A stretch of DNA of 64,000 nt. It comes from an uncultured Pelagibacteraceae bacterium (GTDB lineage: Bacteria > Pseudomonadota > Alphaproteobacteria > Pelagibacterales > Pelagibacteraceae). The DNA lies in contig CACIHQ010000002.1 of assembly GCA_902586495.1 (NCBI GenBank), positions 40,001 through 104,000 of the forward strand, given 5' to 3'. Of this stretch, positions 32,118 through 36,640 are shown piece after piece (the first letter of the stretch is position 1; each line of letters begins with the position of its first letter). Position numbers and translations under genes: made by a program. The notes beneath the pieces were generated by a model. It was given only the letters and a program-made list of their open reading frames with translations, was not told where the DNA came from and made no database searches.

Positions 32118-32408
32118 TTGGTTGTTAAGTCAAAACTTTTAAAACAAATTTCCACCAGCTTTCCGAATTTTCAAAAAAAGGACATTGAAAAAGTAACTAA
32201 TATAATATTGGAGGAGATGAAAAAGTCTCTTAAAAGAGGTGAAAGAGTAGAAATTAGAGGTTGGGGATCTTTAAGTGTTCGTAATCAAAAATCATCTATA
32301 AGACGAAATCCAAGAACAGGAGATAAAGTTGCAGTTCCAGCCAAAAAAGTAATTTATTGGAAAATGAGTAAAGAAATGTTTAAAAAGATTAATAATGACA
32401 AAAAGTAA
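32118..32408 (+). CDS. ihfB: Integration host factor subunit beta
   Basis: VVKSKLLKQIS...RGERVEIRGWGSLSVRNQKSSIRRNPRTGDKVAVPAKKVIYWK HU/IHF family; TTG start; after rpsA. Confidence 0.92.
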   Translation: MVVKSKLLKQISTSFPNFQKKDIEKVTNIILEEMKKSLKRGERVEIRGWGSLSVRNQKSSIRRNPRTGDKVAVPAKKVIYWKMSKEMFKKINNDKK

Positions 32409-33069
32409 AATATTTGTAGCTTGCGATACCACTAAAATAGGTAAAGTTAAAAAAATAATAAGAGATACTCAAAATAAGAAGTTAAAGATTGGATACAAGT
32501 TCGGTTTGGAGTTTTTGAATTCAAAAAATGGAAGGCTTTTTTTATCTAAATTAAAACATAAAATAACTTTTGCAGATTTGAAACTGCACGATATTCCAAA
32601 TACATGTGCATCTACAATTAGAGCGATTAAAGATTTAAAAGTTAACTATCTTACAATTCATATAAGCTCAGGCTTAAATGCCCTTAAAGCAGCAAAAAAA
32701 GTATCAGGCAAAACAAAATTAATTGGTGTAACAATCCTTACATCATTGGATAATAAAGCTTTAAAAGAAATTGGATTTAACAAAGACGTCAGAGAATTAG
32801 TCTTGCATCAAGCAAAATTGGCTAATAAAGCAAAATTAGATGCAATTGTTTGTAGCGCACAAGAAGTGAAAATAGTTAAGAAACAGTTTAAAAAAGAGAT
32901 AATTACTCCAGGAATAAGATTTATATCAAAAAAGAGTGATCAAAAAAGAGTTTTGACACCTAGGCAAGCCTATATAAATGGAGCTGATTGGTTAGTTATA
33001 GGTAGGGATTTAACAAAAGGTAATATTAAAAAAAATACACGGTCACTAATTAACCACTTGTACCAATGA
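32395..33069 (+). CDS. pyrF: Orotidine 5'-phosphate decarboxylase
   Basis: DLKLHDIPNT catalytic motif, IGYKFGLEF, TPGIR. Confidence 0.93.
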   Translation: MTKSKIFVACDTTKIGKVKKIIRDTQNKKLKIGYKFGLEFLNSKNGRLFLSKLKHKITFADLKLHDIPNTCASTIRAIKDLKVNYLTIHISSGLNALKAAKKVSGKTKLIGVTILTSLDNKALKEIGFNKDVRELVLHQAKLANKAKLDAIVCSAQEVKIVKKQFKKEIITPGIRFISKKSDQKRVLTPRQAYINGADWLVIGRDLTKGNIKKNTRSLINHLYQ

Positions 33070-33683
33070 TCAAAGGGTTAAAAATTTGTGGGGTCTCAGA
33101 TCCTAAAACTCTTAATTATATTTTAAATCATCCTCACCCTCCAAAATTTATAGGTTTCATTACTAATTATGAAAAAAGTAGAAGATTTGTTGAATATGAA
33201 AAATTAAAAAAATTAGTTAATATTGAGAAAAAAAATATAAAATTTACATCTGTTCTCGTAAATCCAAATGATGAAATTTTGGAAAAGATAAAAAATTTAA
33301 ATTTTGATTATTATCAACTTTATGATGTGAGTCCTGAGAGAACAAAAGAAATAAAATTTAAATATAAAATTAAGATAATTACAGCTATTACCATTTCAAA
33401 TAAAGACGATGTAATTAAATATAAAGATTACTCAAGTATTTCAGATATAATTCTATTTGACTCAAAAGGTTATCATAGGTCAGAAAGTTTTGATCATAAT
33501 TTACTAAATGATGTGTCTAAAGAGCTAAATAAAATGATTGCAGGAAATATTCAAATTAACGATATTCCTAGTTTTAAGAACAAAGATTTTATAATTGATC
33601 TAAGTGGAGCATTAGAAGATGAAAATGGAAAAAAAGATATTAATAGAATTAATAAATTGTTAAATTTATCCTCAAAAATATGA
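33066..33683 (+). CDS. trpF: Phosphoribosylanthranilate isomerase-like protein (divergent)
   Basis: KICGVSDP N-terminus, IILFD, FIIDLSGALEDENGKKD; position pyrF-trpF-trpB; several canonical motifs degenerate. Confidence 0.72.
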   Translation: MIKGLKICGVSDPKTLNYILNHPHPPKFIGFITNYEKSRRFVEYEKLKKLVNIEKKNIKFTSVLVNPNDEILEKIKNLNFDYYQLYDVSPERTKEIKFKYKIKIITAITISNKDDVIKYKDYSSISDIILFDSKGYHRSESFDHNLLNDVSKELNKMIAGNIQINDIPSFKNKDFIIDLSGALEDENGKKDINRINKLLNLSSKI

Positions 33684-34915
33684 AACTTAAAAAAGGAATA
33701 CCATTAATTGATCAAGGAAACAGATTTGGTTTTTGGGGAGGTAAATTTGGAGGAAATTTTGTTCCTGAAACACTAAAGAAGCCAATCGAAGATTTAGAAA
33801 TTCTTTTCAATAAATTAAAAAAAGATAAAAAATTTATTGCAGAAAGAGATAGGTATTTTAAAAACTGGATTGGAACACCAACTCGGTTTATTAAATTAGA
33901 AAATTTAACACAACATATTGGAGGAGCTCAAATTTGGTCAAAGGTTGTGTCAGATGCAAATGGTGGTGCACACAAAATTTATAATGCTACAGTTCATTGT
34001 TTGCTGGCAAAACGATCTGGAAAAAAAATTATATGTGGAGACACTGGCGCTGGATATGCAGGTAAAATGTTAAGTATGGCAGCTAAAAAGTTTGGTTTAA
34101 AATGTAAAATTTTTATGGGGGCAAAAGATATTGAAAGACAACAGCCAAACGTGAAAGCTATTAAAAAAAATGGAGCTGAAGTTATACCTGTTTATTCAGG
34201 AAGCCAAACGCTAGTTGATGCTGTTTCAGAATGCATGCGTTTCTGGGTAGCCAATTGTGACACTACAGCCATGTGTGTTGGTAGTACTGTAGGTCCAGCT
34301 GTTTTTGTTCGTATTTGTGGGTGGAGTACAAGTCAAATATCTAGAGAATTGAAAGTACAATTAATTGAAGAGTTTGGTTCTATTCCAAAAAAACTTAAAC
34401 TTTATAACTGTGTAGGCGGTGGCAGCTCAAGCTTTGGTTTTTGGAATGAATTTATGGATTATGATAAAAAACAATGTGAGTTTATTGGAGTTGAAGCTGG
34501 TGGGCCAGCTAAAAGCAAAAGACATGCAGCACCACTAACTTATGGTTCAAAAATCGGAATACTGCATGGAGCAGCTCAATATGTAAACCAAAATTCAGAA
34601 GGACAAATAGAAGAGACGGAATCGATTTCTGCAGGACTTGATTATCCAGGAATTTCTCCACTTCATTGTTTTCTTAAGGACACTAAAAGAGCAAGATATA
34701 CAGCTGCAAGTGATGAAGAAGCCTTAAATGCTTATAGGCTTGTGACTAGATATGAAAAATTAAGACCGTCTTTGGAACCCAGCCATGCTTTCTCTGTTGC
34801 AATTAAAGAGGCAAAAAAAATGAGTAAGAATACAATTGTTGTAGTTAACAGTTGTGGAGATGCTTACAAAGATAAGAAAATATTAGTGAAAAGACTTGGA
34901 AAAAAATATGTCTAA
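33680..34915 (+). CDS. trpB: Tryptophan synthase beta chain-like PLP enzyme (divergent)
   Basis: FVPETL, HKIYNA (PLP Lys), MGAKDIERQQPNV, CVGGGSS, GVEAGG, SISAGLDYPGISPLH, LEPSHA; position trpF-trpB-trpA. Confidence 0.82.
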   Translation: MKLKKGIPLIDQGNRFGFWGGKFGGNFVPETLKKPIEDLEILFNKLKKDKKFIAERDRYFKNWIGTPTRFIKLENLTQHIGGAQIWSKVVSDANGGAHKIYNATVHCLLAKRSGKKIICGDTGAGYAGKMLSMAAKKFGLKCKIFMGAKDIERQQPNVKAIKKNGAEVIPVYSGSQTLVDAVSECMRFWVANCDTTAMCVGSTVGPAVFVRICGWSTSQISRELKVQLIEEFGSIPKKLKLYNCVGGGSSSFGFWNEFMDYDKKQCEFIGVEAGGPAKSKRHAAPLTYGSKIGILHGAAQYVNQNSEGQIEETESISAGLDYPGISPLHCFLKDTKRARYTAASDEEALNAYRLVTRYEKLRPSLEPSHAFSVAIKEAKKMSKNTIVVVNSCGDAYKDKKILVKRLGKKYV

Positions 34916-35708
34916 TTCAATAGATCTAGCTTTTCAAAAAGCAAAAAAAGAAAATAGACCTGCTCTTTTAACATATACTGTAGCAGGTGATAGTTCTAAA
35001 AATCAATCTTTAATAATACTAAATGCTATATCAAAATATGCGGATATCTTAGAGCTAGGAGTTCCACACAACACACCAGTTGCAGATGGAAGCCAAATAC
35101 AAACTAGCGCTTATAGAGCAATAAAAAATGGAATTAAAATGGAAGATATTTTTTGGATAGTTAAAAAATATAACAAAAATAAAAATTCAAAACCTATAAT
35201 TCTTATGGGTTACTACAACATGATATTTCAATATGGGGAAAGAAAATTTTTAGAAAAATGTAAAAAGGTTGGGGTAAGTGGTTTGATCGTAGTCGATTTA
35301 CCTTGGCCAGAAAATAAATCTTTTACAAAAAAATGTAAAAAAAAATCAATTTACCTTATTCAACTTTTGTCACCTACCACTTCAAAAGAAAGACTTAATA
35401 AAATAATTAAAGACTCACATGCTATGAATTATTTCATATCAATGCTATCTACTACAGGTGGTAAATTAAAAGTCTCTTCTAGAAAAATTATGTCAAATTA
35501 CCTCAAAATTAAAAAAATAAATCCAAAAAAAAATGTTGTAATCGGTTTTGGAATTACGGAAAAATCAATAGAATCTCTAAAAAAAGCAGATGGATTGGTG
35601 GTAGGAAGTGCAATTTGTAAAGAAATTTCAGTTTCAATTCAAAAAAGACAAAATCCTGTCACAAATGTTGCTAATTTAGTTAAAAAGCTTAAAAATAAAA
35701 TTTTATGA
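34896..35708 (+). CDS. trpA: Tryptophan synthase alpha chain-like protein (divergent)
   Basis: LELGVPHNTPVADGSQIQ, VVIGFGI, DGLVVGSAI; follows trpB. Confidence 0.82.
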   Translation: MEKNMSNSIDLAFQKAKKENRPALLTYTVAGDSSKNQSLIILNAISKYADILELGVPHNTPVADGSQIQTSAYRAIKNGIKMEDIFWIVKKYNKNKNSKPIILMGYYNMIFQYGERKFLEKCKKVGVSGLIVVDLPWPENKSFTKKCKKKSIYLIQLLSPTTSKERLNKIIKDSHAMNYFISMLSTTGGKLKVSSRKIMSNYLKIKKINPKKNVVIGFGITEKSIESLKKADGLVVGSAICKEISVSIQKRQNPVTNVANLVKKLKNKIL

Positions 35709-36640
35709 ATTGGATTACAAAAATAATTAAAGCTGGAGAGAAAATTAAATCTGCTCTTCATAAGAGAGCGACTAAAGAAGATATAGCAAATAGTGATTGG
35801 ACTTCATGTTGCAAAGGTCCTATCTTAAAAAAAGATCTTCAAAAGAACTTATGGGTGTGTCCTGAACCTGAGTGCAACAAACATCATAGAATAACACCTA
35901 AACAGAGATTTGATATTCTTTTTGGTGAGAAAAATTATGAAATTTTTAAAACACCAATTCCAAAAGATGATCCTTTGAACTGGACCGACTCAAAGTCTTA
36001 TAAAGATAGATTAAAAAGTGCAAGAAAAAAAACAGGTATGAATTGTGGAATGATGGTTGTTTGCGGAACAATTAATGATATTAAGATTACAGCTGTTGCA
36101 TCTGACTTTGATTTTTTAGGGGCCTCAATGGCTGCTGCCGAAGGAGAAGCTTTTCTATACGGTATTCAACATGCAATTGAAAATAAAACACCTTTTTTAT
36201 GCGTCAGTGCTGGAGGTGGAATGAGAATGATGGAGAGTTTAATTTCCTTATCCCAAATGACCAGAACCACTCTAGCAATTAATGAATTAAAGAAAAATAA
36301 TCTTCCGTATATAGTTTGTATTACTGATCCAACCGCAGGAGGTATTACAGCATCCTATGCCATGCTAGGAGATATACATATAGCAGAACCAGGTGCTTTA
36401 ATTGCGTTTGCCGGTGCACGAGTAATTCAAGGTACGGTTAAAGAAGAACTGCCCGAAGGTTTTCAGAAAAGCGAATATCTCGAAAAAACTGGTTTTGTAG
36501 ACTTGATTGTCGAAAGAAAAGATCTTTCTGAAAAAATTGGAACTTTATTATCAATATTGTTAAAGAAAAATTCTGTTATAAATTCTGAAGAATATGAAAC
36601 TTCAGAAGATAGTCAGTCGCTTACAAAAGCTGCATCCTAA
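35705..36640 (+). CDS. accD: Acetyl-CoA carboxylase carboxyltransferase subunit beta
   Basis: Zinc-finger region (CCKGPILKKDLQKNLWVCPEPECNKHHR), SAGGGMRMMESLISLSQMTRT. Confidence 0.95.
   Translation: MNWITKIIKAGEKIKSALHKRATKEDIANSDWTSCCKGPILKKDLQKNLWVCPEPECNKHHRITPKQRFDILFGEKNYEIFKTPIPKDDPLNWTDSKSYKDRLKSARKKTGMNCGMMVVCGTINDIKITAVASDFDFLGASMAAAEGEAFLYGIQHAIENKTPFLCVSAGGGMRMMESLISLSQMTRTTLAINELKKNNLPYIVCITDPTAGGITASYAMLGDIHIAEPGALIAFAGARVIQGTVKEELPEGFQKSEYLEKTGFVDLIVERKDLSEKIGTLLSILLKKNSVINSEEYETSEDSQSLTKAAS

Follow-up and report, generated by a model that had tools for sequence, protein, structure and literature searches.

How can a tryptophan synthase β subunit work when it lacks several residues held to be essential for its catalysis? 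This question is raised by the trpB gene in a 64,000-nucleotide stretch (the window) of contig CACIHQ010000002.1 from an uncultured Pelagibacteraceae bacterium (GCA_902586495.1). A first-pass annotation described this TrpB as having lost near-invariant catalytic residues and suggested relaxed constraint or a changed substrate or reaction. Our analysis found the departure from standard TrpB to be real but mis-framed, as we see a rebuilt and re-coupled tryptophan synthase and no loss of function. The window trpBA very probably encodes a genuine tryptophan synthase with a rebuilt β active site and altered α-β coupling, which is exchanged as a cassette. We call its version type A and collected 121 type-A sequences from two SAR11 families (96 from family f1 and 25 from f2).

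Residue numbering follows the alignment to E. coli TrpB. The true departures in the window TrpB are Glu109Asp, Gln114Tyr, His115Ala, Arg148Ala, Lys167Val, and Arg379Asp. The catalytic Glu109 and the Gln114-His115 pair of TrpB1 are therefore absent, being Asp109, Tyr114, and Ala115 in the window, as the annotation had recognized in the motif GDTGAGYAG. It was also right that the lysine binding pyridoxal 5'-phosphate (PLP; HK), DIERQ, and CVGGGSS are retained. The PLP lysine, the GGGS phosphate cup, and Glu350 are invariant in all the types described below. The reported replacement of Asp305 by the arginine of KRARY was wrong. E. coli D305 in SAGLDFPSVGP corresponds to the aspartate of SAGLDYPGISP in the window, and the arginine aligns with position 323. 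Arg141 and Asp305, which form the closing salt bridge, are found in 96/96 f1 and 25/25 f2 type-A TrpBs. The cysteine at position 377 is present as noted, but presenting it as a departure is misleading, since it also occurs in 25/25 other Alphaproteobacteria sampled and in the order's two canonical TrpBs.

The unusual residues are strongly conserved. Asp109 occurs in all 129 sequences of types A, A2, and B, and within type A, Tyr114 is found in 118/121 and Asp379 in 119/121. The ratio of nonsynonymous to synonymous substitution rates (dN/dS) of trpB against near relatives is 0.03-0.10. Between f1 and f2, TrpB is 67% identical, whereas the products of the flanking pyrF, trpF, and accD are mostly 27-40% identical. 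Because the unusual residues are near-fixed in two families and dN/dS is this low, type-A trpB is a constrained enzyme. A pseudogene or a sequencing error was rejected, as the motif is near-fixed in more than 120 genomes. The annotation had itself considered a simple pseudogene excluded, and this holds: the open reading frame is intact and overlaps trpF and trpA by 4-8 bp. In two relatives (G070:C14:3311-4459 and L053 in G060), a stop codon lies within trpB or close to its start, possibly an assembly error.

Evidence for function comes from the genomic setting of type A. It is the sole TrpB1 in genome G192, which we take to be that of strain HTCC1062. Normal trpC and trpD were found in all 14 near-complete genomes; these include carriers of types A, A2, B, C, D, and canonical as well as genomes whose assembly has a gap at the locus. 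The type-E genome G086 (87% complete) also has both genes. The window TrpA retains Glu49, Asp60, Tyr175, Thr183, and the phosphate-binding residues including the glycines. HTCC1062 was grown on artificial seawater with only pyruvate, glycine, methionine, and vitamins, without tryptophan (PMC13198564). An earlier study reports a single trpB of a distinct cluster in P. ubique and concludes that it must work (Kagan et al., 2008, PMC2395257). A working tryptophan synthase is the simplest reading, because type A is the sole TrpB1 in the presumed HTCC1062 genome, trpC and trpD are present, and the TrpA residues are kept. In the window assembly we found no canonical trpB and no second TrpB (the next match, at 27 bits, is another PLP enzyme), and in related SAR11 genomes a TrpB of this kind is likewise the only TrpB1.

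Several points weigh against this reading. G192 (1,308,759 bp) was matched to HTCC1062 by its length. The window assembly (79.5% complete) is without trpC and trpD, which we interpret as missing contigs. The structure model was poor (mean predicted local distance difference test score of 42.7 from a shallow alignment) and was left unused. Long stems make the deep positions in the TrpB tree uncertain.

Type A is one of several versions found in the same place. In the SAR11 order, the slot between trpF and accD holds six sequence types of trpBA (A in about 121 genomes, A2 in 7, B in 1, C in 6, D in 5, and E in 3) plus the canonical one in 2. TrpBs of types A, C, D, and canonical share 27-46% identity. 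The TrpB tree contains three deep divergent lineages (A+A2+B, C+E, and D), all of them fully or almost fully supported, and type C of family f1 groups with type E of family f2. A single clade of f1 TrpBs was rejected by the approximately unbiased test (p-AU 2e-10). A single clade of all SAR11-order TrpBs was not (p-AU 0.157). Among samples of 289-299 genomes outside SAR11, only ordinary TrpBs were found and no close relatives of types A, C, and D (best identity 46%, 51%, and 39%, respectively). A viral source of type A was rejected, as none is encoded in the viral collection; for type C, the matches listed from the phage collection were only ordinary TrpBs with less than 46% identity.

The types also differ in how the two subunits are coupled. 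Position 56 of TrpA and position 167 of TrpB are an acid and Lys (or Arg) in canonical, C, and E, and both uncharged in A, A2, B, and D. The charged pair was seen 36 times and the uncharged pair 131 times, with no mixed pair among 167, which on the tree corresponds to two double losses that occurred independently. In TrpB, Gln114 and Arg148 are jointly replaced in A, A2, and D, and no such joint change is seen in B (Met114, Arg148) or E (Ala114, Lys148). In types B and C, α Asp60 (35085-35087 in the window) is Glu (L008 and L009, respectively), a change of a catalytic residue in TrpA that parallels the changes in TrpB.

Published work on these positions suggests how type A may function. The Glu109 carboxylate interacts with indole N1, His115 and Phe306 are walls of the indole pocket, and in the closed state Gln114 contacts Asn145 and Arg148 (PMC9512447). 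In eudicot tryptophan synthase β (TSB), having a carboxylate in the place of Glu109 was considered the important feature (PMC12727527), and Asp109 is for this reason likely compatible with activity. The literature searched yielded nothing on E109D in tryptophan synthase. We propose that type A retains the PLP chemistry through Lys87, Glu350, GGGS, and the TGAG carboxylate loop, and that Asp109 would provide the carboxylate for indole activation in place of Glu109. Tyr114, Ala148, and Ala115 may together have taken over from the Gln114-Arg148 contact and the pocket wall formed by His115, and non-charged partners from the α56-β167 salt bridge. The product would be L-tryptophan from indole-3-glycerol phosphate (IGP) and serine. 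Type A is the usual SAR11 enzyme. Both its catalytic activity and these roles of individual residues are predictions.

The two genes are exchanged together. Two genomes of one genus, G009 with type A and G017 with type D, align at 86% DNA identity as far as the first bases of trpB and again at 93% from the final base of trpA onward, accD included, with no DNA match between. Likewise, G067 (type D) and G158 (type C) share 91% DNA identity as far as trpB. In the trpF tree, f1 and f2 are separate and the trpB types are scattered, with 5 changes for the 5 type-D genomes, and the accD tree scatters them likewise. The nearest neighbor of a TrpA has the same type as its TrpB in 166/167 cases, the exception being the single type-B genome. 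Because the breakpoints are at the gene junctions, the types are scattered in the flank trees, and the TrpA type follows the TrpB type, trpBA moves as a unit: it is exchanged in SAR11 as an exact, co-adapted two-gene cassette, with at least four strongly dissimilar versions involved. Most simply, the exchange would occur by homologous recombination in the flanks, with trpBA repeatedly replaced in place by deeply divergent cassettes through the flanking trpF and accD. Within a genus, pyrF (37-85%) and accD (42-97%) also show several identity classes, and the whole trpBA neighborhood seems to recombine often.

We considered whether the type-A enzyme might use another nucleophile or amino-acid donor and make another product. 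The indole- and substrate-pocket residues Glu109, Gln114, and His115 are all replaced, and changes at Glu105 (T. maritima numbering) are cited as giving engineered TrpBs tyrosine-synthase activity (PMC12727527, PMC12909874). However, the engineered enzymes have Gly, Ala, or Ser there and Asp preserves the carboxylate, the IGP-site residues of TrpA are retained, and type A is the sole TrpB in a strain grown without tryptophan, with trpC and trpD intact. A changed reaction is thus very unlikely, and the annotation's suggestion of one is unsupported. Its other suggestion, relaxed constraint, would mean a gene decaying in a lineage whose genome is reduced and which imports tryptophan. SAR11 genomes are indeed reduced, and several window proteins score below their family cut-offs, but the dN/dS values, the near-fixed motif in the 121 genomes, the higher conservation of TrpB than of its flanks between families, and the retained tryptophan pathway refute this idea, to which we give almost no credence.

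Equally remote is a pseudoenzyme like the eudicot TSB-like proteins, in which an inactive β subunit only activates α and indole is released. Both proteins are altered at the site equivalent to T. maritima Glu105, but TSB-like proteins have Ala, Ser, or Pro there and Glu in place of Asp305, and are paralogues beside a working TSB (PMC12727527), whereas the window protein has Asp109 and Asp305 and is single-copy. The deep types might instead have arisen by very fast divergence inside SAR11 without cassette transfer, and the p-AU of 0.157 for one SAR11-order clade allows divergence within the order. This is highly improbable, as genomes of one genus with flanks 86-93% identical differ in type, the breakpoints falling at the gene junctions, and a single f1 clade was rejected. 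A genuine tryptophan synthase exchanged as a cassette accordingly stays our preferred reading. Whether selection keeps the locus in multiple versions, with co-adapted α-β cassettes that have distinct active sites and inter-subunit signalling traded between lineages for differences in kinetics, regulation, or inhibitor sensitivity and not by mere drift, is more doubtful; we regard this as possible but unlikely.

The window enzyme resembles TrpB1 (TIGR00263; Salmonella and E. coli, P. furiosus, and the reconstructed last bacterial common ancestor (LBCA) protein 5ey5, its best PDB match) in fold family, PLP lysine, GGGS, Glu350, the Asp305/Arg141 pair, and an operon with trpF and trpA, and its trpB is linked to and co-inherited with trpA. 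It differs from TrpB1 in Asp109, Tyr114, Ala115, Ala148, Val167, and Asp379 and in scoring 373.9 bits, under the curated cut-off of 392.45; the type-A orthologue in G192 is over it (403.5 bits). Canonical alphaproteobacterial TrpBs are about 41% identical to it. TrpB2 (TIGR01415) is likewise a PLP β-subunit homologue, and a minority of SAR11 genomes have it as an additional gene, whereas the window TrpB is linked to trpA, is far under the TrpB2 cut-off (94.1 against 518.85 bits), and belongs with TrpB1. Eudicot TSB-like proteins share the change at the indole-activating glutamate and have lost the carboxylate. Kagan et al. (2008, PMC2395257) had described SAR11 TrpB as a distinct cluster, single-copy in P. 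ubique; the accessible part of that paper contains no residue analysis, other locus types, or cassette exchange. That SAR11 TrpB is distinct was thus known. The literature searched contained neither the residue logic nor the multiple types nor the cassette exchange, which are new here.

Table 1. Features of the trpBA locus and of its subunit residues, in window positions.
Feature	Position	Strand	Evidence or remark
pyrF, upstream flank	32395..33069	+	TIGR01740, 121.9 bits
trpF, phosphoribosylanthranilate isomerase; left border of the cassette	33066..33683	+	PF00697, 77 bits
trpB type A, tryptophan synthase β subunit, 411 aa	33680..34915	+	TIGR00263, 373.9 bits
PLP lysine, β Lys87	33974..33976	+	invariant across all types
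GDTGAGYAG: Glu109Asp, Gln114Tyr, His115Ala	34037..34063	+	alignment
β167 Val (canonical TrpB: Lys), partner of α56	34214..34216	+	
β Asp305, intact	34640..34642	+	alignment
Arg of KRARY, aligned to E. coli Asp323, not Asp305	34694..34696	+	
β377 Cys, usual in Alphaproteobacteria	34853..34855	+	25/25 in class sample
β379 Asp (canonical TrpB: Arg)	34859..34861	+	
trpA, α subunit, 266 aa; start overlaps trpB stop	34908..35708	+	TIGR00262, 209.6 bits (cut-off 102.35)
α loop 2: Glu49 and Asp60 retained, α56 Thr (canonical TrpA: Asp)	35052..35087	+	
accD; right border of the cassette	35705..36640	+	TIGR00515, 284.6 bits

The closest named relatives by TrpB are single-cell genomes of uncultured Pelagibacteraceae, with identity up to 97%. 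The window TrpF is divergent as well and scores 100.9 bits where the cut-off is 216. In place of a glycine-rich GG(N/T/S)G preceding FDW it has GYHRSESFDH, and AGGL is AGNI. These changes are common to most f1 trpF genes and absent from f2. A second, unlinked TrpB-like gene with about 140-150 bits to TIGR00263, probably TrpB2, is present in roughly a dozen SAR11 genomes (for example L064, L065, and L066 in G066, G081, and G023); G066 has a type-D trpBA too. Outside SAR11, the small (1.4 Mb) alphaproteobacterial genomes G232 and G459 have two TrpB matches each. An apparent trpB loss in G162, G174, and G195 was rejected, since trpA and accD are missing as well; these genomes are 94-96% complete and keep trpC and trpD, and the variable locus probably fell into a gap of their assemblies.

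As a textbook model of catalysis, channelling, and allostery, tryptophan synthase is known mainly from a single type of enzyme. The most abundant bacteria of the sea mostly use versions without residues deemed essential in that model, and the same gene slot appears to offer several independent working solutions. The strict pairing of α56 and β167 marks a part of the inter-subunit signal that must change as a unit, and the exact two-gene exchange clearly exemplifies how, in a streamlined genome, a core metabolic complex is replaced by an orthologous one.
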